Source: Ruminococcaceae bacterium YAD3003
GTDB taxonomy: Bacteria > Bacillota > Clostridia > Saccharofermentanales > Saccharofermentanaceae
Direction: 5' to 3'
Length of the DNA stretch: 64,000 bases
Assembly (NCBI GenBank): GCA_900107185.1
Contig: FNPA01000001.1
Location: 186,001-250,000, forward strand
In this document: one piece after another, positions 3,167-57,601 of the stretch
How positions within the stretch are numbered: position 1 is the stretch's first letter
Layout of the letters: every line of letters starts with the position of its first letter
Notes under the pieces: generated by a model
The model's input: only the letters and a program-made list of their open reading frames with translations
What the model was told of the DNA's origin: nothing
Database searches by the model: none
Position numbers and translations under genes: made by a program

Positions 3167-4366
3167 TTATTGCTCTTCGATCAAATCAGGGAATATCTCG
3201 AGTGATCTCCACAAAATACCGTGCATGTATGCAATCGCGGTACCGTAGTTCGTCATCGGGATACCGCAGTCGTTAGCGCACTTCGTGCGGTAAATCATCT
3301 CGCGGTCATTGAGCATGCATGCGCCACAGTGAATAATCATCTTATATTTAGTGAGGTCCTCAGCGAAAGTAAGACCTGATGTTGTCTCAATGTTTATGTT
3401 CTTTCCTGTATATTCCTTAAGCCACTTCGGAATCTTATATGTTCCGATATCTTCGCACTGTCTGTGGTGTGTGCAGCCTTCGGAAATGAGAACTGTATCA
3501 CCGTCTTCCAGAGACTCGATTGCCCATACACCTTTGACTGCTGATTTAAGGAATCCCTTGTGTCTTGCCAGGAGGATTGAGAACGAAGTGAGCTTAATGT
3601 TTTTAGGAACTATCTTCGATACCTTCCCGAAAACCTGGCTGTCTGTAACGACCAGTGCAGGCGGTATTTTGAGGTTAGCGAGGAGCTGCGGCAGATCAGT
3701 ATCCTGTGCGATATAAGCGATAGCATTCGTATCGAGTATTTCTCTTAACACCTGCTGCTGTGGAAGGATAATCCTTCCCTTAGGAGCAGAACTGTCAATC
3801 GGGATGACGAGAACTACTGTATCACCCGGCTTAATGAGGTCACTGATAAGCGGTGCGGGAGCAGGCTTTTGGAGTCCTGCACGTGCGATCATTTCCTTTA
3901 ATTCATTAATGTTCTTTCCTGTTACGGAACTAACGTAAATCTCATTGGGCTTACCGGCAGAAACAGTCTCTTTCAGATCAGCCTTGTTGTAAGCAACAAT
4001 GTAAGGAATACCCTTCTCTTCAAAAAGTTTAATGAGCTGCTCATCAGTTGCAGCCATGCCTTCAACGAGATCAACAACGAGAACTGCAACATCAGTCTTG
4101 TTGAGAACAAGTTTTGTTCTGCTGATTCTCTTCTCACCCAGGATTCCGTCATCGTCAAAACCTGGTGTGTCGATAATTACAACAGGGCCCAACGGAAGAA
4201 TCTCCATGGCCTTATAGACAGGGTCCGTTGTTGTACCCTTCGTATCGGATACGATTGCAAGATCCTGGTTTGTAATCTTGTTTACGAGACTAGATTTACC
4301 GGCATTTGTTCTGCCGAAAAATCCGATGTGAATTCTCTCACTCTGAGGTGTGTCATTTAATCCCAT
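3167..4366 (-). CDS. hydF: [FeFe]-hydrogenase maturation GTPase HydF
   Basis: HydF is the GTPase scaffold that carries the [2Fe] subcluster precursor to apo-[FeFe]-hydrogenase. The ATG at 4366 is chosen because GGAGGAG lies seven bases upstream; a longer frame exists but has no ribosome binding site. The 399-residue product has an N-terminal GTPase domain (P-loop GRTNAGKS at residues 18-25, TTTDP, DTPGFDD, NKAD), a middle dimerisation region, and the C-terminal HydF cluster motif CTH followed about 50 residues later by HCGAC, the [4Fe-4S] ligands. It overlaps the upstream component-1-like gene by 14 bases, so it is translated as the last member of the nitrogenase-like/Hyp operon. HydE, HydG and any [FeFe] hydrogenase are absent from the window, so whether its client is a hydrogenase elsewhere or the enzyme of this operon is open. 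Confidence 0.93.
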   Translation of the reverse strand: MGLNDTPQSERIHIGFFGRTNAGKSSLVNKITNQDLAIVSDTKGTTTDPVYKAMEILPLGPVVIIDTPGFDDDGILGEKRISRTKLVLNKTDVAVLVVDLVEGMAATDEQLIKLFEEKGIPYIVAYNKADLKETVSAGKPNEIYVSSVTGKNINELKEMIARAGLQKPAPAPLISDLIKPGDTVVLVIPIDSSAPKGRIILPQQQVLREILDTNAIAYIAQDTDLPQLLANLKIPPALVVTDSQVFGKVSKIVPKNIKLTSFSILLARHKGFLKSAVKGVWAIESLEDGDTVLISEGCTHHRQCEDIGTYKIPKWLKEYTGKNINIETTSGLTFAEDLTKYKMIIHCGACMLNDREMIYRTKCANDCGIPMTNYGTAIAYMHGILWRSLEIFPDLIEEQ

Positions 4367-5420
4367 GCAAATACTCCTCCGTTCTAAGAAGGTTTGGAAT
4401 CTGTTTTCTGAATAGTCTTCCCGACATCGCGAAATGCGGGAGTTCGATAAACGTTGCTGTCGCCGGCACAATATACTTCACCATCGGATCTGCGATGATC
4501 GTTTCCGCATCTTTTAATGCTTCTTCGATCTCCTCTTCACCGTGACATCTCTTGTCGCAATGCTGCAAGAGCCCATCAGTTATTTCAGTTGATGCGATCA
4601 CATTAAAATCAATTCCGGTATGCTGCTTGATATATGCAGCAATGGAACCTGATACAACTGTCTCACCTACAATATAATTTCTTGAAGAGTTCCTTTTAAC
4701 ACCCATATAGTCCTGGACTTTACCGTCCCACGGAAGTCCTTTAACGTATGGAATGCCAAATGTATCTTTCATGTATTCGCATGCAGCAACACCTGATGAA
4801 GAAACAGCGATGTTCAGTTCAGCCTGTGTTGCCTTCATCACATTTTCAAAAGATGTATTAAGCGCCCAGTTGGATACGATCTCATGGCCGTCTGATATAT
4901 AGATGTCCGTCGATGTATAATCCAAAGGCGTCATTCCGATGATATTTACCCCGTTCTTAACCTTCTTATCTGACGGTTTAAGCATCTTCTTTGCAAAACT
5001 TAAGAATGCTTCCGACTGGCCTTTGGAATAGTCGTGCATTGCATTGGTATTTACATAGAAACAAGGTAGACCTGTCTTTTCTTCCAGCACTTTGCAGATG
5101 CCTTTAAAATCCGTTCCGTTAAGATACGGCAGAGGTGAATTCGCAAGAGCGATAAACAGAGGCTTCATCTTATCTGCCGCGTAGCAGATATCTTTAATAA
5201 ACTTGTCGTCATTACCTGTTATCGCATCGATGTCATTAAGACCTGAAATATAGATCAGGCTCTCCTGGTCAAACCACCTTACTTCATCGTGCGTGTTATA
5301 TGTTGAATTGCAGCCTGAAGGATCGTGAATTACAGTCATGCCGCCGAGCTCGTAGAGAGCGCTCGCCGCACCTGATACATCACCTGTATAAACCGGTAAG
5401 ATCCTGTATGTCTTTTTCAT
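4353..5420 (-). CDS. Nitrogenase component-1-like protein, small-subunit type, second pair (provisional NflK2)
   Basis: The 355-residue protein belongs to the nitrogenase component 1 / oxidoreductase superfamily and resembles the K/B side of the heterodimer. The ATG at 5420 follows AGGAG and overlaps the preceding stop (ATGA). The segment around residues 10-40 (VYTGDVSGAASALYELGG then PSGCNST) aligns with the NifK region carrying P-cluster ligands: the first Cys is Asp14, the second is Cys37, and the third (NifK STC) is replaced in NSPLPYLNGTD. Asp14 and Cys37 have exactly the same numbers in the paralogue at 11506-12441. In dark-operative protochlorophyllide reductase an Asp of BchB ligates the cluster, so Asp14 may do the same (inference). 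It lacks canonical FeMo-co ligands and is far shorter than NifK. Its partner is the overlapping gene upstream; hydF follows. Confidence 0.8.
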   Translation of the reverse strand: MKKTYRILPVYTGDVSGAASALYELGGMTVIHDPSGCNSTYNTHDEVRWFDQESLIYISGLNDIDAITGNDDKFIKDICYAADKMKPLFIALANSPLPYLNGTDFKGICKVLEEKTGLPCFYVNTNAMHDYSKGQSEAFLSFAKKMLKPSDKKVKNGVNIIGMTPLDYTSTDIYISDGHEIVSNWALNTSFENVMKATQAELNIAVSSSGVAACEYMKDTFGIPYVKGLPWDGKVQDYMGVKRNSSRNYIVGETVVSGSIAAYIKQHTGIDFNVIASTEITDGLLQHCDKRCHGEEEIEEALKDAETIIADPMVKYIVPATATFIELPHFAMSGRLFRKQIPNLLRTEEYLHGIK

Positions 5421-6715
5421 ATGCAGCTCCTGCAACCCAAACCTTTTCTGGGTACGATATCACGGAGATCTTTTTCATTTACAAAAGCATCTTCCATGAG
5501 ACTTATAAATCCGGTAATTCCAGCAAAACCATAGAGGCCGCCGCCTTCGATCATGTTGACGAAATATTCTGTTCCTTCGAACCAGGCAGCCTTCTGTCCT
5601 GCTGCCAGGATTTTTCCTTCACTTCTTACGGGTCTTCTGTCACTAACGTGAATCGTAGAATGAAGAACCAGTTCGGGATATTTCTCTGCGAGATATTTGA
5701 AATCTTCCTCTTCGCTGCCATCTATCGCGTCGAGATAAACAGTCTTAACGTTAATGCCGTTATCAAGTAAAAATCTTGCGAGCGATAAAGGTTTCGGTGC
5801 AACTGTGTAATCAATCGCAACAGTCGTATCACCAATCAAATCTTTGAGTTTTTTAACTTCAGTTTCACAGGATTTAATACCGTTCTCGATGAAACCTTCA
5901 GGTATATTAAGGCCTGATGATTTGAGTTCACTTTCGATCGTATCAAAACCAAAACTCAGAGGTGCATAAATAAACTTACGGTTAAGTCTCTTCGTTATCG
6001 TCTGAGTTGCCATAAGGCCTGCCGGATACTGGCAGATAAATAATGATGATTCACCAATCGAAAGATATTCATCAAGAGTTTTGCAATTTGCAGTATCCCT
6101 GACCGTCTTATTGTTGAATTCGAGTATGGTTTGGAAATCGTTATCTGCTGCCGGCATATCGCTTCCCGCAAATGAGATTACGTCAGGATTTACGGGAAGA
6201 TTGGGAATGATATCCGACATTGCTTTGCGGAGTCTCTGGTCAGGTGTCGTGCCGCGCTTCTGCATGACAGGATCCATGAATCCCCTCACGAAAGTAACAT
6301 CGGGAAAGCGCTTGCCCAGTTCTCTATAGATAAAGTCGATATCGCATCCCATGAACTTGTGAACACATACAGGGAAAATGATTACTACAGGAGGTACTGA
6401 CGGCAGTTTATTCAGACAGTCAGTGACACCCTCTATAGTCGTCTCTTCTATTCTTCCTGAATGAGTCATGTCGTCTTCTTCTAAAACGACTGATGAGAAT
6501 CTTCCGAGCTCACCCATCTCTGCAGCAGTCATTACAACACCGCGCAGACAGTTGTCGGCGCAGATGTATATCTGATGCGCAGAAGGGATCCTGAAACCGA
6601 TGTGGACTATATTCCATGTGCCGTGAACGGGCGCGTTGAATTCGAGCCCGTTGGTAAACGGTTTCGGGAATGTCGCTTCTCCTATTCTTACTTTCTCATC
6701 ACTTGACGTTGGCAT
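5417..6715 (-). CDS. Nitrogenase component-1-like protein, large-subunit type, second pair (provisional NflD2)
   Basis: The 432-residue protein resembles the D/N side of nitrogenase-like heterodimers and is paralogous to the protein at 12438-13763. Shared landmarks are a LEFNAP segment where nitrogenases have CAY (the first Cys is lost), ICADNC (Cys56 aligned with the second cluster Cys), FPVCVHKFMGCD (Cys117 aligned with the third), and NCKTLDEYL (Cys211, matching TCKTYEEFL in the paralogue). It ends in a cysteine pair (GCRSCI) that the paralogue lacks. No NifD-type FeMo-co His is evident. It overlaps the TM1266-like gene upstream by 17 bases and its partner downstream by four. It could be a second catalytic unit or a NifEN-like scaffold on which a cofactor is built; sequence alone does not decide. 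Confidence 0.8.
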   Translation of the reverse strand: MPTSSDEKVRIGEATFPKPFTNGLEFNAPVHGTWNIVHIGFRIPSAHQIYICADNCLRGVVMTAAEMGELGRFSSVVLEEDDMTHSGRIEETTIEGVTDCLNKLPSVPPVVIIFPVCVHKFMGCDIDFIYRELGKRFPDVTFVRGFMDPVMQKRGTTPDQRLRKAMSDIIPNLPVNPDVISFAGSDMPAADNDFQTILEFNNKTVRDTANCKTLDEYLSIGESSLFICQYPAGLMATQTITKRLNRKFIYAPLSFGFDTIESELKSSGLNIPEGFIENGIKSCETEVKKLKDLIGDTTVAIDYTVAPKPLSLARFLLDNGINVKTVYLDAIDGSEEEDFKYLAEKYPELVLHSTIHVSDRRPVRSEGKILAAGQKAAWFEGTEYFVNMIEGGGLYGFAGITGFISLMEDAFVNEKDLRDIVPRKGLGCRSCI

Positions 6716-6947
6716 AAGAAGTCTTTACGTTTACTCCGTCTAATCTTCCGATCTTACCTGTGATCTCACTGATGTAATCCTGGGGTGCGTTGATAGCGAT
6801 CATGATGATGCTTATACCCATCTCACGGTAGGGCACGCCCATTCTTCCGATGATGTACTGTCCTGCTTCATGAAGAAGAGCGTTGAGCTTTTCTACTGAC
6901 TCAGGATTCTCTACGATGATAGAAATTGCTGCGACTCTTGTATCCAT
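6699..6947 (-). CDS. TM1266-family small ACT-like regulator of iron-only hydrogenase systems
   Basis: The 82-residue protein starts MDTRVAAISIIVEN and contains IGRMGVPYRE and SIIMIAINAP, the pattern of the TM1266 family, a ferredoxin/ACT-like fold related to the C-terminal domain of NikR and annotated as a putative iron-only hydrogenase system regulator. The family is commonly found beside hydF, hydE and hydG. Here it stands between hypE and the second component-1-like pair, with GAGGTGA before its ATG. It has no DNA-binding domain of its own, so it probably senses a ligand or binds a partner protein; its true role is not established. Its presence in the operon strengthens the link to H-cluster-type chemistry. 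Confidence 0.8.
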   Translation of the reverse strand: MDTRVAAISIIVENPESVEKLNALLHEAGQYIIGRMGVPYREMGISIIMIAINAPQDYISEITGKIGRLDGVNVKTSYANVK

Positions 6948-6956
6948 AAATTCACC

Positions 6957-7961
6957 TCAGCAGATTCTCGGTAACAACTCGTTGCCCGGCTTCGGAAGAT
7001 ATGTCTGTCCGCCGACTTCAGTTGTCATTACGACTCTGCCGACTTCATCAGCTGTTACTTCACCGATGATTGCAGCGCCTTCCGTATACTTCGTTGTCTT
7101 CAATACTTCAACAACTGCATCAGCCTTATCAGCAGGACACATCATTACCATTCTTCCTTCGCATGCGAGGTACAACGGTTCGAGACCCAAAAGGCCTGTA
7201 ACACCCTGTACTTCAGGTGCAACAGGAACAGCACTTCTGTTAACCTTGATTCCGACTTCTGCTTCGTCTGCAATCTCATAGAGAACAGTACCTACACCGC
7301 CTCTTGTTGCATCTCTGATAACATGCATCTCAGGGCAGACTTCGAGCGCCTTTCTGACAGGCTCCCAAAGAGGCGCACAGTCAGATGTGACATCAGCTTC
7401 GATACCATACTCATCTCTTGCGAGAAGAATTGCTGTACCGTGTCTTCCGACATCACCTGTAACGATGATCTTGTCACCGGGCTTAGCGAACTTACCCGAT
7501 GTGTTGATATTATCATCGATCACACCAACACCTGCTGTTGTGATGAAGATCTTATCTACCTGTCCTTTGCCTGCAACCTTTGTGTCGCCGGCAACGATAT
7601 TTACTCCGGCTTCCCTTGCAGTCTCACCCATTGTTTTCGCGATGAGTTCCAGATCTTCGATCGGGAGACCTTCCTCAATGATGTAGGAACATGTGAGGTA
7701 AAGAGGCTTTGCACCCATGCATGCGAGGTCATTAACAGTACCGCAGATTGCGAGTCTTCCGATGTTGCCGCCCGGATATTTCCAGGGTGAAACGATGAAG
7801 CCGTCTGTGGACATTGCGATACGTCCTTCGGGCTTCGGAAGGACTGCTGCATCGTCTGCAGTAAAATACTCGTTGCCGAGATTCTTTCTGAATATCTCAC
7901 CGATGAGTTCGGATGTTTTTCTTCCGCCGCTTCCGTGAGCTAATGTGATTACTTCTTTCAT
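6957..7961 (-). CDS. hypE: Carbamoyl dehydratase HypE
   Basis: HypE accepts a carbamoyl group from HypF on its C-terminal cysteine and dehydrates it with ATP to a thiocyanate, the source of the CN ligands of the Fe(CN)2CO unit. The start at 7961 has GGAGG upstream and overlaps the hypD stop (ATGA); a longer frame lacks support. The 334-residue product shows LAHGSGGRKTSELI at the N-terminus, AMSTDGFIVSPW, GDTKVAGKG, DATRGGVGTVLYEIA, and the obligatory C-terminal PRIC with the reactive Cys as the last residue, so it looks functional. It is placed directly after hypD in a hypF-hypC-hypD-hypE run inside the nitrogenase-like operon. Confidence 0.95.
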   Translation of the reverse strand: MKEVITLAHGSGGRKTSELIGEIFRKNLGNEYFTADDAAVLPKPEGRIAMSTDGFIVSPWKYPGGNIGRLAICGTVNDLACMGAKPLYLTCSYIIEEGLPIEDLELIAKTMGETAREAGVNIVAGDTKVAGKGQVDKIFITTAGVGVIDDNINTSGKFAKPGDKIIVTGDVGRHGTAILLARDEYGIEADVTSDCAPLWEPVRKALEVCPEMHVIRDATRGGVGTVLYEIADEAEVGIKVNRSAVPVAPEVQGVTGLLGLEPLYLACEGRMVMMCPADKADAVVEVLKTTKYTEGAAIIGEVTADEVGRVVMTTEVGGQTYLPKPGNELLPRIC

Positions 7962-9013
7962 GACTGTCCTCCATACATATAGAATGCAGAGCATGCGCCC
8001 TCATCAGATACCATGCATGCGCCGACCGGGTGGTCGGGATTGCATACCTTACCGAAGAGCGGACACTGGTTAGGCTTGATCTGTCCCTGCAGAACATTTC
8101 CGCACTTGCATCCTGTCTTTTTCTCATATTCCATCTTAGGGATCGAATGCTTCTTTCGAGCATCGTAATCAGCATATTCATCCTTGAGTTCAACACCTGA
8201 ACCGGGGATCATTCCGATACCACGCCACTCAGCATCACAAGGCTTCAGATACTTATCAACGATTGCACATGCTGCAGGGCTGCCTGCATCGGTTACAACT
8301 CTCGGATACGCGTTAACGAAGAACGGCTTTCCTTCAGCAAGTTTCATAACCGTGATACCCAATGCAGTGAGGAGCTCCTCGCCTGTAAATCCTGCGATTG
8401 TTCCGCTTACGCCGCGCTCTGCCATATCTTTGCAGAGCTGTGTTCCGATTATCGCGTGAACGTGACCCGGGTAGAGATATGCATCCGTTGAAGAAGCCAT
8501 TGCTTCGTATGCACCGGGCATTGTTTTATTCGCTGTAAGAAGTGCGAAATTATTGATCTTATCCTTTATCGCATTCTGCACTGAAATAACATCAGAAGGT
8601 GTTGTCGTCTCAAATCCTACGGATAAGAAAACAACCTGCTCTTCAGGATGATCCTTCGCATATTTCTCAGCGTCGATCGGTGAATAAACGACCTTCACCT
8701 TACCGCCTTCCGCACGTGCCTGCTGGAGGCTCTTAACGTTACCCGGGACTCTTACGAGATCACCGAAAGTAGTGATCGTGCAGCCCTTCTCGAGTGCAAG
8801 ATAAACTGCCTCATCGATATAGGATGCAGGCGTAACGCACACAGGACATCCGGGGCCTGAGATGAGATTGATCTTTGGCGACAAAAAGTTTCTTATTCCC
8901 TGTCTGAAGATCTCGTGGGTATGCGTACCGCAGACTTCCATGATCCTTACTTCAGGACCGTCGTAAGTCTCGAGATATTTCTTCAGATCAGAAGTATCAG
9001 TAATAGAAGTCAT
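7958..9013 (-). CDS. hypD: Hydrogenase maturation iron-sulfur protein HypD
   Basis: HypD with HypC forms the scaffold on which Fe receives two CN and one CO ligand. The 351-residue product has every signature: MEVCGTHTHE, GPGCPVCVT, SVGFETTTP, and a cysteine-rich C-terminal region (GCKCG, QCPLFGKVCNP, GACMVSDEGAC) that holds the [4Fe-4S] cluster. The length is normal. It overlaps hypC upstream and hypE downstream by four bases each, consistent with stoichiometric translation. In known systems HypCD passes the iron unit to the [NiFe]-hydrogenase large subunit, which is not encoded here. Confidence 0.96.
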   Translation of the reverse strand: MTSITDTSDLKKYLETYDGPEVRIMEVCGTHTHEIFRQGIRNFLSPKINLISGPGCPVCVTPASYIDEAVYLALEKGCTITTFGDLVRVPGNVKSLQQARAEGGKVKVVYSPIDAEKYAKDHPEEQVVFLSVGFETTTPSDVISVQNAIKDKINNFALLTANKTMPGAYEAMASSTDAYLYPGHVHAIIGTQLCKDMAERGVSGTIAGFTGEELLTALGITVMKLAEGKPFFVNAYPRVVTDAGSPAACAIVDKYLKPCDAEWRGIGMIPGSGVELKDEYADYDARKKHSIPKMEYEKKTGCKCGNVLQGQIKPNQCPLFGKVCNPDHPVGACMVSDEGACSAFYMYGGQS

Positions 9014-9222
9014 GCCTGATTCTCCTTCAATACTTTCTCTGACTCAGACTTATCGTCATCAGTAATCTTCGCGATGGCGCATCCTGCGTGAACCATTACA
9101 TAATCGCCGGGTTCAAGATTGTCCAACAGTTCTGCTGAGATCTCGCGCTTTGCACCTGTGCAATCCACCATTGCAACACCGTCCTTAACGCTGATAACCT
9201 TTGCTGATAATCCTACGCACAT
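9010..9222 (-). CDS. hypC: Hydrogenase maturation chaperone HypC
   Basis: HypC binds iron with HypD through its conserved N-terminal cysteine. The ATG at 9222 is chosen because it gives MCVGLSAKV, placing Cys at position 2 as the family requires, and because GGAGGAA stands just upstream; a longer frame starting at 9240 would bury this Cys. The 70-residue product contains the ELLDNLEPGDYVMVHAGCAIAKI barrel region typical of HypC/HupF, although the usual Pro of MCLAIP is Leu here. The stop overlaps hypD (ATGA). A HypC that serves an unusual client may diverge at its N-terminus, so the VGL in place of LAIP is worth noting. Confidence 0.93.
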   Translation of the reverse strand: MCVGLSAKVISVKDGVAMVDCTGAKREISAELLDNLEPGDYVMVHAGCAIAKITDDDKSESEKVLKENQA

Positions 9223-9236
9223 ATATATTTCCTCCT

Positions 9237-11504
9237 TCAATTGTTTATCTTGTTCATTCCGTACAACGCCTGGCCCAAAGCGATTCCTCCGTCGTTCGGC
9301 GGAACCATTGAGTGGAGCAGTACCCTAAATCCGTTATCTTCCAATATCTTTGCCGTAAGCGAAGTGAGTAATTTGTTCTGATAACATCCTCCGCTTAATG
9401 CAGCCGTCTTTAAGTCTCCTGCTTTCGCGATCGCCATTTCCGCAACGCCTTTTGCGAGCAGGTAATGGAACTCGTAAGCAAGTTTACTGATATCTGTTCC
9501 ATTAAGTTTTTCTTCCGCGATATGTCTTACGATTTTCTCTGTCGCAACGATATCTCCATCGATTAGATCTTCCATCTCGAAAGTTTTCTCTCCCTCATAT
9601 TCCAATGCCTTAAATTCGAGCGCAGTTGCAGCCTCGCCTTCAAAGCTCTGTTCGTACTTTATTCCGAGTATCGCGCTCACTGCATCAAACAGTCTTCCGC
9701 AGCTCGTTGATACAGCGGTATTTACTCTGTTATCGTGCATCGCCTTAAACATCTTGAATGTTCCCTGCCTTAACAGGCCCAGGTCATTACACTTCGTTTC
9801 TGCTTCATCACCAAAGATATCGATGAGCATTGAGATCGCAATTCTGAATCCTTCTCTTGATGCGACATCACCGCCTGTATGAAGGAACGGTCTGATGTGT
9901 CCCACACGCACGAAATCACTGATCGAACACTTCAAGATCTCACCGCCCCAGATAGTACCGTCGATGCCGTATCCTGTGCCGTCAAGAGAGATGCCGATTA
10001 CATCATCAACATAATCGTTTTCAGCCATGCATGAGAGAATGTGAGCATAGTGATGCTGGACTCTGATGAGTTCCAATCCTGATTCTTCCGCAGCTGCAGA
10101 AGAGTTATAAGAAGGATGCAGATCACATACAGCATGTGTCGGTTTTGCTTCCAACAAAGTGAGCATTCTCTCTGCCGATTCCTTGAGTGCATTTTTACCC
10201 TTGATGTCTGTGAGATCACCAATGTAAGAAGACGGATACATGAGACTGTTCACAGCAACGCAGAATGTGTTTTTGAGTTCTCCGCCGTACGCGATAACGG
10301 AACCTGAAAATTGTTTTGTCATCATGTACGGGAGCGGTGCATAACCTCTTGAACGTCTTATCATGTAAGGCTTACCGTCATAGAAATCCATAACGGAATC
10401 ATCAGCTCTTAATCTGATCTTTCTGTTATGTGTAAGGATTACATCGCAGTATGCCTTTATCTCACGTCTCGCATCATCATCATTTCTGCAGATAGGAAGA
10501 CCTGATAAATTGCCGCTCGTCATAACAAGACAGGCAGGCATTTTTATACCGTCATCGTAATCAAAAATAAGACTCTGAACAGGCGCATACGGGAGCATAA
10601 CCCCAAGCATCGGATTACCTGGTGCAACCTGCTCTGCGAGAATAGAATCCTCACGTCTCTTCAACAGGATGATCGGCTTCTGATGTCCTGTTAAGATCTC
10701 GCGCTGATAATCTTCGATATAGCAGTTCTTCAAAACCTCTTCTTCGTTTCTCATCATGAGTGCGAAAGGTTTAGAAGGACGGTGCTTCAATTCACGAAGT
10801 CTCTTAACTGCATCGTTATCGTATGCATTGCATGCTAAGTGGAATCCTCCGATTCCCTTAATGGCAGCAACGCCTCCGTTTGCAATAACGGAACGCACAT
10901 AAGTAATCGCGTCCCTGCCGCTTCTGTTCTCTTCGTCATCAAGAATGAACACTTCCGGTCCGCATTCATTACAGCAGACGGGCTGAGCATCGTATCTTCT
11001 TGTTGCAGGATCGTAGTACTCTTTCTCACACTCGGGGCACATCGGAAATTCTTTCATCGATGTTCTCTCGCGGTCATAAGGCAACGCATCCAGAATAGTA
11101 AGACGCGGTCCGCAGCATGTGCAGTTAATAAACGGATGCAGATATCTTCTGTTGTTCTTATCGAAGAGTTCAGCGAGGCACTCATCGCAGATTGCAATAT
11201 CAGGTGATACAAATATCTCGCCTGATGTTTTCGCACTCTCGATAATCTTGAAATCATCGTATGCGGGAACATCCTTTACCTTGATATCCATCTTCAGGAT
11301 CGCAGCGCGTTTCGGCGGCTGTGTCCTGATGAGATCAATGAACTTATCTACCTGTTCTTCTCCGCCCTGCGCATAGATCTCAACATAAGGACCAAGGTTA
11401 GACACACTTCCCTTTATGCCAAGAGAAGCAGCGTGCCTTGCGACTGTCGGTCTGAAACCGACACCCTGGACTATGCCGTAAACTTTAATGCGCTTCGTTA
11501 TCAA
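9237..11504 (-). CDS. hypF: Carbamoyltransferase HypF
   Basis: HypF uses carbamoyl phosphate and ATP to make a carbamoyl adenylate and transfers the carbamoyl group to HypE. The 755-residue product is full length: an N-terminal acylphosphatase domain (GIVQGVGFRPTV), two zinc-finger pairs (CDECL, CTCCGP, CPECE, CCNECGP at about residues 107-182), a YrdC-like domain (AIKGIGGFHLACNA onward), and a Kae1-like C-terminal domain with VQHHYAHILSC and SLDGTGYGIDG. It starts with TTG at 11504, one base after the stop of the preceding gene, with GGGAG eight bases upstream; no better ATG is close. It opens the hypF-hypC-hypD-hypE block between the two component-1-like pairs. Confidence 0.95.
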   Translation of the reverse strand: MITKRIKVYGIVQGVGFRPTVARHAASLGIKGSVSNLGPYVEIYAQGGEEQVDKFIDLIRTQPPKRAAILKMDIKVKDVPAYDDFKIIESAKTSGEIFVSPDIAICDECLAELFDKNNRRYLHPFINCTCCGPRLTILDALPYDRERTSMKEFPMCPECEKEYYDPATRRYDAQPVCCNECGPEVFILDDEENRSGRDAITYVRSVIANGGVAAIKGIGGFHLACNAYDNDAVKRLRELKHRPSKPFALMMRNEEEVLKNCYIEDYQREILTGHQKPIILLKRREDSILAEQVAPGNPMLGVMLPYAPVQSLIFDYDDGIKMPACLVMTSGNLSGLPICRNDDDARREIKAYCDVILTHNRKIRLRADDSVMDFYDGKPYMIRRSRGYAPLPYMMTKQFSGSVIAYGGELKNTFCVAVNSLMYPSSYIGDLTDIKGKNALKESAERMLTLLEAKPTHAVCDLHPSYNSSAAAEESGLELIRVQHHYAHILSCMAENDYVDDVIGISLDGTGYGIDGTIWGGEILKCSISDFVRVGHIRPFLHTGGDVASREGFRIAISMLIDIFGDEAETKCNDLGLLRQGTFKMFKAMHDNRVNTAVSTSCGRLFDAVSAILGIKYEQSFEGEAATALEFKALEYEGEKTFEMEDLIDGDIVATEKIVRHIAEEKLNGTDISKLAYEFHYLLAKGVAEMAIAKAGDLKTAALSGGCYQNKLLTSLTAKILEDNGFRVLLHSMVPPNDGGIALGQALYGMNKINN

Positions 11505-11505
11505 A

Positions 11506-12441
11506 TCAAGTTCTCCCGCTTATTGCAAAGCACTTGAGGTCTACCCAATTTCCTTCGTAATCAGGAACGAGTTCCTTGAGGCAGATGTCCGCAGCGATCG
11601 TATCGTATCCGCCGTCTCTTACCATCTCAATAAACTCATCTTCCTGAGTGATCTTCTTATCGCCATCCTGCTTAACTGAGTCATGGAGTTTAAAGAATGT
11701 CGCGATGTCGCAATTGACGCCTGCATCCCTTAATGTCTTGCCGACTACTTCATCGTGGCACACAAGGGTTTTACCCTTAATGCCTTCAGGAATACTATTC
11801 TTAAATACAGGGCTGAATATCTCGAATTCTTTTCCGAGATATTCACACGCATCTATGCCTGATGCGGAAGCAGCAACGAGCTTTTTTGCGCCCCTTATGT
11901 TCTTAATATCATCGAGTGTTAAATCGATATAATCCTTGCCGTAAGTAAGAGGTGTCATACCGATAACGAGCTGACCGGTCTCAACTTCCGGCGTATCAGT
12001 TGCGAACTCATCAATGAGCGCTTTGTATGCTTCCTTCTCACCTTCGTTGTAGAGTTTCATTCCGTTCGAAACTACAGGTACAACAGGAATATCAACCTTG
12101 CCCTCGATAAGTTTCTTTAGAGCCTTATAATCGGTTCCGATAGTTGCAGGAACCGGTGTTCCGATTACTGCAACAAAAGATGTGTCGATGCGTTCAACTG
12201 CTGATCCGATCTTAGATGCGAGGAGTTCATCTCTTCCCAATATCGCATCCATGTCACGTAGTCCTGCTGAGAATACGGCGCTCCTTGATTCATGCCATCT
12301 CGGTTCATCGAATCCGCATACATTACCAGTGCATCCGCCCGCATCAATGATTACTATCAACGCTCCCATCGAATAGAGAACACCGGAGGCGCCTGACTGG
12401 TCAGGTGCAAAAGGTGTCAGAACTTTTCTTAATCCTTTCAT
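11506..12441 (-). CDS. Nitrogenase component-1-like protein, small-subunit type, first pair (provisional NflK1)
   Basis: The 311-residue protein is paralogous to the one at 4353-5420 and resembles a much shortened K/B-type subunit. Its N-terminal PFAPDQSGASGVLYSMG aligns with the NifK segment holding the first P-cluster Cys, here Asp14; DAGGCTG gives Cys37 (with an extra Cys42), and the third NifK Cys is replaced in IGTPVPATIGTD. The GFDEPRWHES segment matches THDEVRWFDQ of the paralogue, supporting a shared ancestor. GMTPLTY recurs as GMTPLDY. The start overlaps the partner gene (ATGA). The C-terminus is short, so the usual third Rossmann-like domain seems reduced. The substrate is unknown; a cluster-binding role for Asp14 is inferred by analogy with BchB. 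Confidence 0.8.
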   Translation of the reverse strand: MKGLRKVLTPFAPDQSGASGVLYSMGALIVIIDAGGCTGNVCGFDEPRWHESRSAVFSAGLRDMDAILGRDELLASKIGSAVERIDTSFVAVIGTPVPATIGTDYKALKKLIEGKVDIPVVPVVSNGMKLYNEGEKEAYKALIDEFATDTPEVETGQLVIGMTPLTYGKDYIDLTLDDIKNIRGAKKLVAASASGIDACEYLGKEFEIFSPVFKNSIPEGIKGKTLVCHDEVVGKTLRDAGVNCDIATFFKLHDSVKQDGDKKITQEDEFIEMVRDGGYDTIAADICLKELVPDYEGNWVDLKCFAISGRT

Positions 12442-13763
12442 GCCTTTGCCTCCTCTAATGCATCGTAGATCTTATTCATCAGGTCTCTTACTCCCTGATA
12501 TCCGAACGGTCTCGTATCCTGGTTCCACGCTACATTGGGTGTATCAGGACAATAGAATTTTGCATCCTTGCCGACAGTCACATCAGCATCCGACTGTGAG
12601 ATCTTGTAGTAGAGCATCGTCGGTTCCATGTTGCAGTAGATCTTTGTGTCAGGTGACAGCAACGCGAGATTTTTCACATAAACAAAATTCTCAGGCGCCA
12701 GTGTCGCGTAGATCTCATCAACCTTGAATCCCATTCTTACCAGACTTAATGCCAGCTCGAAAGCATTAGCGTTCGCGCATTCACCGACGTTAAACTTCAG
12801 ATCGGGATATTTATTCTTAAGTCTTACAATTGCTTCTTCTGCTTCTGCCTTTTCTTCGCCGTCATCTATATCGATTCCGGTGACGCTTGCGAGCGCCTTA
12901 TACTGCGAAGAGATCTTATCTGTTGAATAAACTCTCGTGAGCTCGATATAAGGAATTCCGAGATTTTTATTCATGTCTTCAGCAGCTGCCCTGACCTCAG
13001 GATCGATAACGATATTGAAGTTTGCAGATGCCATCTGAAGAAATTCTTCATATGTTTTGCAGGTCGATATCTGTCTGATATTTCTAATCCCTGCGAGTTT
13101 CAGATATCCGGCGAGTTCAGTGTTCTCGAGCGGTGCAAAACCTCCAATAATGTTTACTGATCTCGCATCCTTTTCCATGGGTTCGAGCAAGGAATAAATC
13201 GTCTGTCTTACGTGAACCATAGGAGGACGGCGTCCTTCTCTTGTGAGCGCATACATATAGCAGGGACGAACCTTGATACCTTCGAACTCACCACCTGTCA
13301 GAGCATCTTCCGCCTTGCGGCAGACTCTGTCCATGTCGGTTCCGAGGAGCGCATCAACACATGTAATGCAGATCATGACGACCTTCGGAATCTTCTTACC
13401 ATTGTCTCTTAAGAATTCGAGAACTTCCTTAATTGCATCAGGAATCTTATTAAGATGACGGCCGGTTACGAGATCAGGTTCGCTCATCTCTAAATAGAAA
13501 AATCTGTTCTTGTATTCGGGCATAGAGGAAATGAGTGAAGTGTTTCTTCCGCAGCATCCCGGAGCTACGATCAGCATGATTGACTCAGGCACACTTAATC
13601 CCGCTCTCTTTACACCGAATCCTTCGGCACCCGGAGAGTTATATGCGAGCGTTGCAGGTGAACTGTATACGAGATTATTTCCCGACAAGAGTTCAGAGGG
13701 AATGTCGCTCTTCCCGCGCTGCAATACTTCTTCAGCTGTAAAACAAATAGCTTCGCGCTTCAT
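12438..13763 (-). CDS. Nitrogenase component-1-like protein, large-subunit type, first pair (provisional NflD1)
   Basis: The 441-residue protein is a D/N-type member of the nitrogenase component 1 superfamily. Visible landmarks are TLAYNSPGAEG where NifD has CAYAGSKG (first cluster Cys replaced by Leu), VAPGCCGRN (Cys70/71), ICITCVDALLGTD (Cys132/135), ISTCKTYEEF (Cys235), and a C-terminal RPFGYQGVRDL typical of the superfamily. Two of the three cluster cysteines found in NifD and BchN are therefore retained. A His equivalent to the FeMo-co ligand of NifD is not evident. It follows the NifH-like gene by six bases and precedes its small partner with a four-base overlap. By order (H, D, K) it looks like the catalytic pair, but this is inference. 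Confidence 0.82.
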   Translation of the reverse strand: MKREAICFTAEEVLQRGKSDIPSELLSGNNLVYSSPATLAYNSPGAEGFGVKRAGLSVPESIMLIVAPGCCGRNTSLISSMPEYKNRFFYLEMSEPDLVTGRHLNKIPDAIKEVLEFLRDNGKKIPKVVMICITCVDALLGTDMDRVCRKAEDALTGGEFEGIKVRPCYMYALTREGRRPPMVHVRQTIYSLLEPMEKDARSVNIIGGFAPLENTELAGYLKLAGIRNIRQISTCKTYEEFLQMASANFNIVIDPEVRAAAEDMNKNLGIPYIELTRVYSTDKISSQYKALASVTGIDIDDGEEKAEAEEAIVRLKNKYPDLKFNVGECANANAFELALSLVRMGFKVDEIYATLAPENFVYVKNLALLSPDTKIYCNMEPTMLYYKISQSDADVTVGKDAKFYCPDTPNVAWNQDTRPFGYQGVRDLMNKIYDALEEAKA

Positions 13764-13769
13764 TAGTGA

Positions 13770-14516
13770 TTATCCTTCCAAAAGCATCTTTGCCAGATCC
13801 AAAAATCTCTGAGCCGCCTCAGAATCCTTGGCACCTTCAACTACTGTCATGCCCTTATCCTCACAGAGAGTAATGTCATCACTTCTGGGAATAACTGCAA
13901 CGATTGGAGCGTTATGCCCGTCGGCAAATTCCTTTACCTTCTCGTCTTCACCCGGAACGTTACGCTTATTGAGGATCAGTCCTCTTACGTTTGCGTATCC
14001 TCTGTCTTCGAAATTTCTTACAGCCTGACAGATATTATTAGCAGCATAGAGAGCCATCTTCTCACCTGATGTTACGATGAGAACCTGCTCTGCATAGCCT
14101 TCTCTGATAGGTGCAGCAAATCCGCCGCAGACAACGTCGCCCAATACATCGTAGAGAACGACATCGGGTTTATATTCTTCAAAAAGACCTAATTCATCGA
14201 GAAGGTTAAAAGTCGCAATGATTCCTCTTCCTGCACAGCCGAGGCCCGGTGTAGGACCGCCTGTCTCAATGCAGAGTACTCCGCCGAAACCTTCCTGTGA
14301 GATTTCTTTCGCTGAGGTCGGATCGATACCATCCTTGAGAATCTCGATAACGGGCTTCAGGGGTTTACCACCCAAAAGATTGATCGTTGAATCTGCCTTG
14401 GGGTCACAGCCAATCTGGATAACTCTCTTTCCCATACTCGCAAAAGCAGCAGAGAGATTGGATGTAACCGTAGACTTGCCGATACCGCCTTTACCGTAAA
14501 TTGCGATCTTAAGCAT
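13770..14516 (-). CDS. Nitrogenase reductase (NifH/BchL/CfbC)-like ATPase, provisional NflH
   Basis: The 248-residue protein is a NifH-family iron protein: a homodimer holding one [4Fe-4S] cluster that passes electrons to a component-1-like partner with ATP hydrolysis. The P-loop [25 protein letters not shown] (Cys94) and [20 protein letters not shown] (Cys130) are all intact, so both cluster ligands and switch regions are present. It is shorter than nitrogenase NifH (about 270-290), like other group IV homologues. A GAGGAG Shine-Dalgarno sequence sits seven bases before the ATG. It is the first gene of the operon and the only NifH-like gene for two component-1-like pairs, so it may serve both. 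A candidate folded leader lies directly upstream. Confidence 0.92.
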
Positions 14517-53675: not shown

Positions 53676-54908
53676 TTATTCAGCAAACTTCTTGACGATC
53701 ATGGAAGCGTTGTGGCCGCCGAATCCCAAGTTGTTTGTCATAGCATAAACTATATCGCGATTCTTAGGTTCAATAAAGGTGTAATCGAGATCCATCTCGC
53801 CTTCAGACTCCTTAGAACCAGCTGTAACGTGAACATATCCGTCCTGGATTGCCTTAACGCAAGTGATGAGCTCAACGCCGCCTGCACCACCGAGAACGTG
53901 GCCGATCATGGACTTTGTTGAGTTGATGGAGATGTTCTTGATATCTTCCTTGAATGCGTACTTCATAGCACGTGTCTCAAAGAGGTCGTTGTGGTGAGTT
54001 GAAGTACCGTGAGCGTTGATGTAATCAATTTCAGAAGGCTTGATGCCTGCTTCCTGCATAGCAATGATCATTGCCATACCTGCGCCGCTTCCGTCTTCTG
54101 CAGGTGATGTGATGTGGTATGCATCGCATGTAGCACCATAGCCGACGATCTCTGCGAGGATGTTAGCGCCTCTTGCCTTTGCGTGCTCATAGCTCTCGAT
54201 AACGAGAACGCCTGAACCTTCACCGATAACGAAACCGTCTCTGTCCTTATCGAAAGGTCTGGAAGCTGTCTCGGGATCTTCATTTGTAGAAAGAGCTGTA
54301 AGAGCTGCAAAGCCCTGGATACCCGTTCTGCATACAGCTGCCTCGCATCCGCCTGTGATCATGACGTCTGCATCGCCGTACTTAACAGCCTTGAACGCAT
54401 CACCGATTGAGTGAAGTCCTGTAGCGCATGCTGTAACTACACAAGTATTGATGCCCTTCATTCCGTACTGGATTGCAATGTTGGCTGATGCCATGTTTGC
54501 GATCATCATAGGAATGTACATAGGAGCGATCTTGCCTGATTTCTCGAATCTGATCTGCTCTCTCTCGTGAGCCTGCATTGAACCGATACCAGAGCTTACG
54601 ATAACACCTACTCTGTAGGGATCTTCCTTCTCCATATCAAGACCTGCCTGCTCAATAGCTTCCTTAGCAGCTGCCAAAGCGTAATGAGCAAAAGGTTCCA
54701 TACGCTTCATTGTCTTGAAATCCATGTAGTTCTGAGGATCGAAATCCTTTACTTCGCATGCGAGCTTTACTTTGAAGCCGCTTGCATCAAACTTTGTAAT
54801 CGGCGCGGTAGCTGCCTTTCCTTTTTTAATACCTTCCCAGAAAGCCTCTACGCTGTTACCAAGAGGTGTGATCGCACCCATGCCGGTTACTACAACTCTG
54901 TTTGCCAT
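53676..54908 (-). CDS. fabF: 3-oxoacyl-ACP synthase II FabF
   Basis: FabF condenses malonyl-ACP with acyl-ACP in chain elongation. The 410-residue protein has VVVTGMGAITPLG, the nucleophile Cys in VTACATGLHSIG, the two His of the triad in NAHGTSTHHND and MIGHVLGGAGG, and NNLGFGGHNAS at the C-terminus. It is complete and sits between fabG and fabZ. Confidence 0.97.
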   Translation of the reverse strand: MANRVVVTGMGAITPLGNSVEAFWEGIKKGKAATAPITKFDASGFKVKLACEVKDFDPQNYMDFKTMKRMEPFAHYALAAAKEAIEQAGLDMEKEDPYRVGVIVSSGIGSMQAHEREQIRFEKSGKIAPMYIPMMIANMASANIAIQYGMKGINTCVVTACATGLHSIGDAFKAVKYGDADVMITGGCEAAVCRTGIQGFAALTALSTNEDPETASRPFDKDRDGFVIGEGSGVLVIESYEHAKARGANILAEIVGYGATCDAYHITSPAEDGSGAGMAMIIAMQEAGIKPSEIDYINAHGTSTHHNDLFETRAMKYAFKEDIKNISINSTKSMIGHVLGGAGGVELITCVKAIQDGYVHVTAGSKESEGEMDLDYTFIEPKNRDIVYAMTNNLGFGGHNASMIVKKFAE

Positions 54909-54962
54909 TTAAAAATCTCCGTTAGTTATTATTTTTTATGGTGCTCCCCAAAAGCACCTTGA

Positions 54963-55703
54963 TTACATATGCATGCCGCCGTCAACGCTCAATACCTGAC
55001 CTGTGATGTATGAAGCATCTTCAGAGCAGAGGAAGTTAACTGCATTGGCAATATCTTCGGGCTGACCGTATCTCTTGAGAGGGATAAGATCAAAGATTGC
55101 ACTCTTCTGCTTGTCTGTGAGAACTGCTGTCATAGGAGTCTCAACATATCCGGGTGCAATAGCATTGAATGTGATGTTTCTTGAAGCGAACTCTCTGGCG
55201 CAAGATTTAGTAACGCCTACGATTCCTGCCTTTGAAGCGGAGTAGTTGACCTGGCCTGCCTGGCCCTCAAGACCTACGATAGAAGAAATGCTTACAACTC
55301 TACCTTCCTTCTTCTTCATCATGATAGGTGTTACGTGCTTGATGAAGTTGAATGTACCCTTGAGGTTAACTGCGATGACAGTGTCAAAATTCTCTTCTGT
55401 CATCTTGAGAAGGAGTCCGTCTCTTGTGATACCTGCGTTGTTAACGAGGATGTAGATGCCGCCGAAATCTTCGTTGATCTGAGCAACTGTCTCTGCAACC
55501 TTTTCGAAATCAGCTACATTGCACTGATAAGCCTTTGCATCAACGCCAAGAGCCTTAACCTCTTCTTCAGCTTCCTTGCTGTTCTCGAGAGGGCATGCAT
55601 CAACGATTGCGATGTTATAGCCGCTCTTAGCAAGCTTAATTGCGATAGCCTTTCCAATACCTCTGGAAGCGCCTGTAACGATTGCTGTCTTTCTCTCTGA
55701 CAT
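54963..55703 (-). CDS. fabG: 3-oxoacyl-ACP reductase FabG
   Basis: FabG reduces 3-oxoacyl-ACP with NADPH. The ATG at 55703 is chosen because AAGGAGG is eight bases away; the ATG at 55709 is too close. The 246-residue short-chain reductase has TGASRGIGKAIA, NNAGITRDGLL, the Ser of VSISSIVGL, the YSASK (Tyr, Lys) pair and PGYVETPM. It lies between fabD and fabF and is distinct from the second reductase at 60576. Confidence 0.96.
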   Translation of the reverse strand: MSERKTAIVTGASRGIGKAIAIKLAKSGYNIAIVDACPLENSKEAEEEVKALGVDAKAYQCNVADFEKVAETVAQINEDFGGIYILVNNAGITRDGLLLKMTEENFDTVIAVNLKGTFNFIKHVTPIMMKKKEGRVVSISSIVGLEGQAGQVNYSASKAGIVGVTKSCAREFASRNITFNAIAPGYVETPMTAVLTDKQKSAIFDLIPLKRYGQPEDIANAVNFLCSEDASYITGQVLSVDGGMHM

Positions 55704-55721
55704 GATCATTTCCTCCTTAAA

Positions 55722-56639
55722 TCAGCCGAGTTTTTCCAATAAACTGTCAATATCTGCAGGTGTTGAAACACCGATAACCTTAATGGTTGAAACAGTCTTT
55801 CTTACGAATCCCGCAATTGTCTTTCCGGGACCTACTTCGATGATCGTATCTACGCCCATCTTCTCCAATTCATAGAGTGTCTGCTCCCACATAACGGGGC
55901 TGGATACCTGTGCTTCGAGAAGAGGCTTGATCTCAGACTTGTCTGTGATCGCCTTAGCATTTGCATTTGCAAAATAAGGGATCTTCAGATCGCCGAGTTC
56001 AACATTCTCGAGTTCTTTGCCGAGCTTCTCGCCTGCACCCTTGAGAAGAGGTGAATGGAAAGGTCCTGATACGTTGAGCTCAACAACCTTCTTTGCGCCT
56101 GCTTCTGAGAGCTTGGGCATAGCTGCCTGAACAGCACCCTTCTTACCTGTGATTACGATCTGGCCGGGGCAGTTGAAGTTAGCGCACCAAACGCCGTCCA
56201 TATCACCGATAACGCCTTCGATCGTTTCCTTATCAAGACCGATAACAGCTGCCATTGTGCCTTCACCTGCAGGAACTTCAGATGACATGAGTCTTCCTCT
56301 TGTTCTTGTAAGTCTTACGGCATCCTCAAAAGTGAGTGCGCCTGCTACATAAAGGCTGCAGTACTCACCGAGTGAGAGACCTGCTGTAACGTCAGGCTTA
56401 ACTCCTGCCTTTAAGAGAGCATCTGTGATGATGCAGCATGCAGTAACCAATGCAGGCTGTGTGTATTCTGTGATGTTGATGTCTTCATTCTCCTCAAAAA
56501 GGAGTTTGTTCATGTCGATTCCTGATGCCTCAGATGCCTTCGCGATCATATCTGCGTAGCATGCATCTGAATCAACAAATTCCTTAGCCATTCCAACGTG
56601 CTGTACGCCCTGGCCGGGGTAACAAAAAGCTATACTCAT
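55722..56639 (-). CDS. fabD: Malonyl-CoA:ACP transacylase FabD
   Basis: FabD loads malonyl groups from CoA to ACP. The 305-residue protein has FCYPGQGVQHVGMAKE, the nucleophile Ser in AGLSLGEYCSL, and the catalytic His in VSGPFHSPLL. It starts at the TAATG overlap with the fabK stop. Confidence 0.96.
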   Translation of the reverse strand: MSIAFCYPGQGVQHVGMAKEFVDSDACYADMIAKASEASGIDMNKLLFEENEDINITEYTQPALVTACCIITDALLKAGVKPDVTAGLSLGEYCSLYVAGALTFEDAVRLTRTRGRLMSSEVPAGEGTMAAVIGLDKETIEGVIGDMDGVWCANFNCPGQIVITGKKGAVQAAMPKLSEAGAKKVVELNVSGPFHSPLLKGAGEKLGKELENVELGDLKIPYFANANAKAITDKSEIKPLLEAQVSSPVMWEQTLYELEKMGVDTIIEVGPGKTIAGFVRKTVSTIKVIGVSTPADIDSLLEKLG

Positions 56640-57571
56640 TATGCTTCGAGCTTCCTTCCCAATAATTTATCTGCCTGCTCGAACATCGACTCGATGATTA
56701 CCTTTGCAGGTCTTACTTCACTGACAAGACCTGCGATCTGTCCTGCCATGAATGTACCTTCCTTAACATCGCCTTCAACAACTGCCTTACGGAGACTTCC
56801 TACTGTAAGTCCTTCGAGCTCCTCGAAAGTAACGCCGCTCTGCTCCATCTCAAGATACTTGTTGGAAAGAGCATTTCTGATCTGTCTTACAGGGTGGCCG
56901 TAAGATCTGCCGGTAACTCTTGTTGAGTTATCCTTTGCCTTGATGACCATATCTTTGTAGTTCTGGTGAACATTAACTTCGTCACAAGCGCAGAAAACTG
57001 TTCCGCACTGAACGCCTTCAGCACCGAGCATGATGCTTGCTGCAACACCTCTGCCGTCAGCGATACCGCCTGCTGCGATAACAGGGATTGAAACTGCATC
57101 TACTACCTGGGGAACGAGTGTCATTGTTGTAGCTTCACCGATGTGGCCGCCGGACTCTGTACCTTCAGCGATAACAGCGTCAGCACCGCACTGCTGCATT
57201 CTCTTTGCGAGAGCAACACCTGCAACTACAGGAATAACGATGATGCCTGCCTCTTTCCACATGTCCATATACTTCTCCGGTGAACCTGCACCTGTAGTTA
57301 CTACCTTAACCTTTTCCTCGGCAATAACCTTTGCAATCTCAGGAGCTCTGGGATTCATGAGCATAAGGTTTACACCGAACGGCTTGTCTGTTGCCTCACG
57401 GCACTTCTTGATCTGGTCACGGAGCCAGTTCTCATCTGCTCCGCCGACACCGATGATGCCGAGGCCGCCTGCTTCGGATACAGCTGCAGCAATGTGCCAG
57501 TCAGCTACCCAAGCCATACCGCCCTGGAAAATAGGATATTTAATTCCGACCAAATCTGTGATTCTTGTCAT
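56639..57571 (-). CDS. fabK: Enoyl-ACP reductase II FabK
   Basis: FabK reduces enoyl-ACP with FMN and NAD(P)H, replacing FabI in many Gram-positive bacteria. The 310-residue TIM barrel of the nitronate monooxygenase superfamily has YPIFQGGMAWVAD, GGLGIIGVGG, AEGTESGGHIGEATTM and AAGGIADGRGVAASIMLGAEGVQCGT (FMN phosphate site). Its operon place between fabH and fabD supports an enoyl reductase role over nitronate oxidation. FabK enzymes are resistant to triclosan. Confidence 0.93.
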   Translation of the reverse strand: MTRITDLVGIKYPIFQGGMAWVADWHIAAAVSEAGGLGIIGVGGADENWLRDQIKKCREATDKPFGVNLMLMNPRAPEIAKVIAEEKVKVVTTGAGSPEKYMDMWKEAGIIVIPVVAGVALAKRMQQCGADAVIAEGTESGGHIGEATTMTLVPQVVDAVSIPVIAAGGIADGRGVAASIMLGAEGVQCGTVFCACDEVNVHQNYKDMVIKAKDNSTRVTGRSYGHPVRQIRNALSNKYLEMEQSGVTFEELEGLTVGSLRKAVVEGDVKEGTFMAGQIAGLVSEVRPAKVIIESMFEQADKLLGRKLEA

Positions 57572-57601
57572 GTCCTTAATCTCCTTTTATTTAATAATCG
57601 A

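Follow-up and report, generated by a model that had tools for sequence, protein, structure and literature searches.

The window analysed here is a stretch of 64,000 nucleotides from Ruminococcaceae bacterium YAD3003 (contig FNPA01000001.1, positions 186,001 to 250,000). Its minus strand carries, from 14516 down to 3167, eleven tightly packed open reading frames (ORFs) that overlap or lie a few bases apart and in which genes for nitrogenase-like proteins are joined to genes for hydrogenase maturation. We conclude, with a probability of about 0.9, that this block is an alternative, HydG-independent front end for biosynthesis of the H-cluster of [FeFe]-hydrogenase. Among 61 carriers of the block (15 in the window's genus, 13 in a family of 178 genomes and 33 others), 58 were without HydG, and there is strong support for a replacement of HydG by the block in different lineages that retain HydE, HydF and the hydrogenase. 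In many bacteria of the gut and rumen and in many gas fermenters, the iron-carbonyl-cyanide centre of [FeFe]-hydrogenase appears to be made without HydG, an enzyme supposed to be essential. The gene order is nifH-like, A, B, hypF, hypC, hypD, hypE, TM1266, C, D and hydF, with A to D denoting the component-1-like proteins:

13770..14516, minus strand: NifH-like ATP-dependent [4Fe-4S] reductase, the first gene (Pfam Fer4_NifH PF00142, 301 bits)
12438..13763, minus strand: nitrogenase component-1-like subunit A (PF00148, 110.5 bits; predicted fold)
11506..12441, minus strand: short component-1-like partner B (PF00148, 47.1 bits)
9237..11504, minus strand: HypF carbamoyltransferase (TIGR00143, 752.3 bits)
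9010..9240, minus strand: HypC (TIGR00074, 60.3 bits)
7958..9013, minus strand: HypD (TIGR00075, 364.0 bits)
6957..7994, minus strand: HypE, ending in PRIC (TIGR02124, 413.9 bits)
6699..6947, minus strand: TM1266-family protein (TIGR03959, 107.5 bits)
5417..6715, minus strand: component-1-like subunit C (PF00148, 19.9 bits, under the cut-off; predicted component-1 fold)
4353..5435, minus strand: component-1-like partner D (PF00148, 82.9 bits)
3167..4471, minus strand: HydF GTPase scaffold with GTPase, dimer and tetramer domains (TIGR03918, 543.5 bits)

The curated cut-offs, in bits, were 466.1 (TIGR00143), 48 (TIGR00074), 192.8 (TIGR00075), 251.6 (TIGR02124), 60.8 (TIGR03959) and 325.6 (TIGR03918), and all four Hyp proteins, the TM1266-family protein and HydF exceeded them; that of Pfam Oxidored_nitro (PF00148) was 28.6 bits. 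The NifH-like protein reached the cut-off of none of its listed NCBIfam families, and the top curated match of subunit A was NifE, far under its cut-off. An earlier note on this DNA had described a same-strand block of eleven genes with a NifH-like protein, two component-1-like pairs, HypFCDE, a TM1266-like protein and HydF, a description that the ORFs and curated models confirm. Judging from the sequence, HypC probably starts at an ATG near 9222 (MCVG) and HydF at an in-frame ATG near 4366 rather than the TTG at 4471, and HypE may start at an in-frame ATG near 7961.

Distribution of the block and of HydG

The genome to which the window belongs contains both HydE and HydF, with hydF inside the operon and hydE elsewhere, and a HydA of 597 amino acids whose core passes the group A model TIGR02512 and which carries TSCSPGW, MPC and GCPGGC, which we take to be the H-cluster motifs. 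No HydG over the cut-off was found in this genome, and a hidden HydG or ThiH was rejected, since the sole match to the HydG model at 1e-20 lies within the hydE gene.

Among the 59 nearest relatives, HydE was over the cut-off in 35 and HydG in 21, and the 14 with HydE and without HydG were exactly those genomes of the window's genus (g1, 35 genomes) that hold both HydE and HypD. Of the 35 genomes in this genus, 26 have HydE and HydF together; HydG occurs in 12 of the 26, HypD and the block in the other 14, and none of them has both (Fisher p 1e-7, uncorrected for relatedness). In the family of 178 genomes (f37), the block was present in 13, HydE was missing in 10 and HydG in 22, two members of this last set (G436 and G450) being inferred. 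When the 168 genomes of this family with HydE were considered, the block was found in 10 of the 14 without HydG versus 3 of the 154 with it (p 7e-11, again uncorrected for relatedness). For one genus of the family (g136), all six block genomes lack HydG and all seven blockless genomes have it, and in one member of the family (G392) the block and HydE are present with HydG absent at a limit of 1e-100. These statistics ignore tree structure, except in the HydE and HydA tree analyses below, and some of the genomes are incomplete.

When named genomes were scanned with subunit A, 419 relatives emerged, and because the best 80 of them comprised 69 from Clostridia and 11 from Coriobacteriia, the block is present in two phyla, with carriers that include Blautia, Roseburia, Coprococcus and Olsenella. 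The 33 further carriers were chosen from these best 80; HydE was found in all 33 and HydG over the cut-off in none. Matches to the HydG model below the cut-off occurred in 16 of the 33, and the seven that were scanned were all ThiH over the ThiH cut-off.

The earlier note had named conservation of the gene order as a point to check, and the order is largely kept in relatives. HypD was found in fourteen genomes of the genus besides the window's own, eleven of which share the order nifH-A-B-hypF-C-D-E-TM1266-C-D, while in the remaining three (G018, G023 and G029) the order is interrupted by contig ends; hydF then follows in the block loci of the genus except in G005, G025 and G033. We compared 107 loci, at least ten of them second copies of a locus from the same genome, and found every gene from nifH to subunit C in 84 (by best label within the fetched stretch), together with a second NifH in 37, hydF in 39, hydE in 10, HydA in 2 and HydG in 0; these counts are lower bounds because many loci end early. 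The block adjoins hydE and/or hydF in several lineages. At L225 and L226 (both g136), TM1266, hydF (L226) and hydE are followed by nifH-C-D-nifH-A-B-hypFCDE, and at L134 the block is preceded by a group A6 [FeFe] hydrogenase and followed by hydF and hydE, with all of these genes on a single strand. The TM1266 family also adjoins hydE in hydE-hydG-hydF clusters. We looked for additional members by listing 45 neighbouring ORFs at nine loci and scanning 14 of them; apart from the HydA and a flavoprotein neighbour at L134, a single family turned up twice, a cysteine-synthase-like pyridoxal phosphate gene (L134 and L226). At one Blautia sp. MSJ-19 locus (L170, 10001-14179), about 2.9 kb lies as an apparent insertion between subunits A and B.

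Switching between the two routes was examined within the genus. A tree of HydE from 25 genomes needed five changes of state, four of them forced by supported branches, the tree having been made by a quick method with some long branches and the sign test on four pairs being too small for significance; the HydA tree needed two changes. The HydA proteins of 12 block genomes shared 93.4-98.5% identity with their counterpart in the closest HydG genome, so that either route serves much the same enzyme. The HydG genomes G027 and G032 contain the cluster TM1266-hydE-hydG-hydF, and G005 contains TM1266-hydE-hydF, with 33 bases from the hydE stop to the hydF start and the block elsewhere in the genome. 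This spacer holds the first 22 bases of the G032 hydG, start codon first, 18 of them shared with G027, and from this remnant between the two genes we infer that hydG was removed in place in G005 while hydE and hydF were kept. In G025 hydE and hydF also adjoin, and no hydG remnant was found between them.

Published work on acetogens and gut bacteria bears on the same distribution. The available text of PMC12773636 gives H2:methyl viologen activities of 20-640 mU per mg for Blautia luti and about 23,000 for B. schinkii, and describes both hydrogenases of B. luti as [FeFe] (HydABC and the group B enzyme HydM). Genomes named B. luti and B. schinkii (L133 and L142; strains may differ) have the block and HydE, with no HydG over the cut-off. 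A complex of [FeFe]-hydrogenase and formate dehydrogenase was isolated from Clostridium autoethanogenum, according to the available part of PMC6288185. In the accessible portion of a 2022 comparison (PMC9431212), HydE, HydF and HypCDEF but no HydG were reported by motifs for C. ljungdahlii, C. ragsdalei, C. coskatii, C. carboxidivorans and strain AWRP, and HydG was named for C. autoethanogenum, C. drakei and C. scatologenes; why no HydG could be identified in five of the eight industrial acetogens is left unexplained there, and the word nitrogenase occurs once in the text as searched, in the references. No description of this gene set was found in the open-licence PMC literature.

Several observations weigh against replacement of HydG by the block. 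Within the window's genus, G033 (89% complete) has the block without HydE or HydF. A search with the HydA model in the 59 relatives found HydA in 33 of the 35 genomes of the genus, and seven genomes of the genus without either route contain a HydA-like protein with H-cluster motifs and no HydE, HydF, HydG or HypD over the cut-offs, so HydA alone is no proof of a maturation route. In the family f37, G360, G365 and G420 (L222, L223 and L227) hold the block and HydG together, which indicates that both routes can coexist, and four of the 14 genomes with HydE and without HydG (G325, G333, G368 and G450) have no subunit A, which may reflect gaps or another route. Subunits C and D are missing from more than 4 kb after hypE at L150, L180 and L227 (4.5 kb in G420 for L227), and L180 belongs to one of the 33 further carriers without HydG. 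No biochemistry of the block's nitrogenase-like proteins was found in the literature. To these can be added the HydG of C. autoethanogenum, an atypical HydG-like radical S-adenosylmethionine gene in all surveyed species but C. autoethanogenum, and the [NiFe] hydrogenase that C. ljungdahlii-type acetogens also hold (all from the available text of PMC9431212).

The HydA-like proteins without maturases come from G012, G030, G019, G021, G028 and G014 (80-99% complete; L284-L287, L290 and L291), with G004 alike at 81% complete. They may depend on a further route or be proteins without the [2Fe] unit.

Fold and conserved residues of the encoded proteins

The sequence profile of subunit C gave zero matches to solved structures at E 1, and fold prediction was therefore used. 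The AlphaFold models of subunits C and A had mean predicted local distance difference test values of 89.6 and 85.8, and Foldseek matched them to nitrogenase component-1 chains with E values of 9.2e-16 and 7.6e-18, respectively. Against component 1, the best VIA Z was 22.8 for the model of subunit C (root-mean-square deviation 4.3 over 363 residues) and 24.5 for that of subunit A (3.7 over 397 residues). By this predicted component-1 fold together with a NifH-type reductase, the block belongs to the nitrogenase superfamily, sharing both elements with NifHDK, NifEN, the dark-operative protochlorophyllide oxidoreductase (DPOR; BchLNB), CfbCD and methylthio-alkane reductase.

Residue conservation was assessed over 71-96 alignment rows (30 for HydF and 31 for NifH2) with duplicates kept in. 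The P-loop and the cluster cysteines of both NifH groups are kept at 100% or nearly, and in the NifH1 group (95 rows) the P-loop and the cluster ligands C94 and C130 are at 100%. Cysteines at 100% include C70, C71, C132 and C135 of subunit A (94 rows), C37 of partner B (93 rows, with C42 at 98%), C56 and C117 of subunit C (90 rows) and C42 of partner D (73 rows). A P-cluster with three cysteines per subunit was not found among these four proteins, the conserved cysteines numbering four in A, two in B, two in C and one in D; a cluster of another kind may be present. In the profile alignment, the place of the cofactor cysteine of NifE/VnfD is taken by D254 in subunit A and by serine in D, and since the cysteine ligand of the iron-molybdenum (FeMo) cofactor is missing at the aligned place in both, nitrogen fixation is disfavoured. 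The cluster site of DPOR consists of three cysteines. Subunits C and D together have three at 100%, and because this set recalls the DPOR site, it suggests by analogy a [4Fe-4S] cluster at the C-D interface. The block differs from the rest of the superfamily not only in these cysteines but also in having two pairs that are paralogous and contain short B and D subunits, in nitrogenase-like proteins that lie below every curated cut-off listed, and in its tie to Hyp and Hyd genes. A remoter trio resembling NifH, A and D (54, 29 and 33% identical) was seen at L232 (G181:C35:233001-253000), where no hyp or hyd genes were found in the stretch; it is possibly a nitrogenase-like relative with another role.

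The maturation proteins have also kept their characteristic residues, whose roles, like those of the NifH residues, we presume from the known proteins. HypC retains its start cysteine and a histidine at 100% of 96 rows, HypD C28, C56, C59 and the C302-C341 set at 100% of 92, and HypE its C-terminal C345 at 100% of 91; in HypF cysteine and histidine residues are conserved, and in HydF C333, C339, C382 and C385 are at 100% of 30. Compared with HydE-HydF-HydG maturation, HydE, HydF, TM1266 and the HydA target are common to both systems, whereas HydG, which supplies CO, CN and the iron synthon, is missing here, its place being taken by nine genes from other families. HypC, HypD, HypE and HypF with their conserved residues are likewise shared with the HypA-F system of [NiFe] maturation, from which the block differs in being linked to [FeFe] maturases, in being joined to nitrogenase-like genes and in that the search of the genus yielded no [NiFe] large subunit.

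Proposed pathway and its alternatives

HydG makes an Fe(CO)2(CN)-type synthon from tyrosine, and HydE receives an Fe(CO)2(CN)-cysteine unit from it. In [NiFe] maturation, HypF and HypE convert carbamoyl phosphate to transferable cyanide, and HypC-HypD join cyanide with CO on iron, HypCD carrying Fe(CN)2(CO). For the block, we infer a step order and a reaction of the nitrogenase-like pairs in which HypF and HypE would turn carbamoyl phosphate into transferable cyanide and HypC-HypD would put this together with CO on iron. Two ATP-driven reductive steps would follow, one by NifH with A-B and one by NifH with C-D, in which the pairs most likely would make the extra CO ligand or ligands, for example from CO2, or would convert a HypCD-type Fe(CN)/(CO) unit. 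The product would be the Fe(CO)2(CN)-type synthon otherwise made by HydG, after which HydE and HydF would act as they normally do and insert the [2Fe] unit into HydA. Passing from the HypCD unit to the HydE unit would require that one CN be lost and one CO gained, or that early assembly proceed with one CN and two CO. Given this gap between the units and the two ATP-driven reductase pairs, reduction of CO2 to CO or ligand editing would fit. We offer as a tentative proposal, at somewhat less than even odds, a third way to iron-carbonyl-cyanide in which nitrogenase-like enzymes, acting on iron supplied by HypCD, reduce CO2 or edit a cyanide ligand and so produce the Fe(CO)2(CN) synthon; the H-cluster of many gut hydrogenases would then owe its ligands to carbamoyl phosphate and CO2, with no contribution from tyrosine. 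The earlier note had allowed either a role in cofactor maturation or a new CN/CO-iron cofactor for an enzyme of the block's own; the distribution of HydG and the block upholds the former and narrows it to the H-cluster in the place of HydG, and the latter finds no support here.

The main alternative lies within the same pathway, as a variant of HydG replacement in which the pairs act as a NifEN-like scaffold, the HypCD iron unit being handed to A-B or C-D and NifH driving its insertion or release before HydE. A, B and D each have NifE as their top curated match, though a weak one, two paralogous pairs recall NifEN and NifDK, and the lack of the FeMo-cofactor cysteine at the aligned place is consistent with such a role. 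The intact P-loop and cluster ligands of NifH suggest electron transfer instead, an argument tempered by the fact that NifH also acts in cofactor insertion, and we hold a scaffold to be a possibility with the odds against it.

Another explanation is that HypE and HypF leak cyanide, the cell supplies CO and HydE-HydF use both, with HydG dispensable and the nitrogenase-like enzymes unrelated riders. Activation of HydA by HydE-HydF alone is weak (about 1%) and rises with added CO or CN (cited in the available text of PMC9431212), and the loci described above that lack subunits C and D would agree with riders. However, NifH-A-B remains linked to hypFCDE wherever a locus extends that far, nifH to subunit C occur together in 84 of 107 loci across two phyla, and at L225 and L226 both pairs sit between hydE and hypF, so we regard this explanation as improbable.

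As the earlier note had also proposed to look for a [NiFe] large subunit, we searched for PF00374 and found it in 0 of the 35 genomes of the genus, the window's own included; accordingly, HypCDEF serving a [NiFe] enzyme in this genus was rejected. Three relatives with a PF00374 match each have their own HypD; for the two that were fetched, the hyp set shares 29-43% identity with that of the window, and no nitrogenase-like gene was found in the stretch. Because C. ljungdahlii-type acetogens also contain a [NiFe] hydrogenase, Hyp may serve two clients there. That the operon matures [NiFe] hydrogenase, or builds an Fe(CN)2CO cofactor for another enzyme, is the least credible reading and very unlikely. 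In its favour, HypCDEF is the known [NiFe] machinery, and a [NiFe] enzyme occurs in some carriers from other genera (available text of PMC9431212). Against it, PF00374 was not found in the genus, the relatives with a match have a HypD of their own, and the block is linked to hydE, hydF and HydA with HydG lost.

Implications and neighbouring genes

Blautia, Roseburia and Coprococcus are common gut genera, so the block may underlie some of the hydrogen metabolism of the gut. If replacement of HydG is true, the [NiFe], [FeFe] and nitrogenase worlds would be linked in one pathway with a new role for nitrogenase-like proteins, and there would be an explanation for the five industrial acetogens out of eight in which no HydG was identified (PMC9431212, available text). 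The block may also offer a new maturation set for hydrogenase production, and nifH-like matches in gut data could in some cases be H-cluster genes.

Elsewhere in the window, a thiE-thiD-thiC-like run on the plus strand (1-2736) converges on the operon; homologues of this run adjoin the block at L083, L090, L092 and L093, with thiC and thiE at L096. On the minus strand at 61334-63598 lies a gene for a 754-amino-acid protein with two ketoacyl-synthase units, which adjoins short-chain dehydrogenase/reductase-like and flavodoxin-like genes and is near a cluster at 53676-58576 that was read by eye as fab-type.

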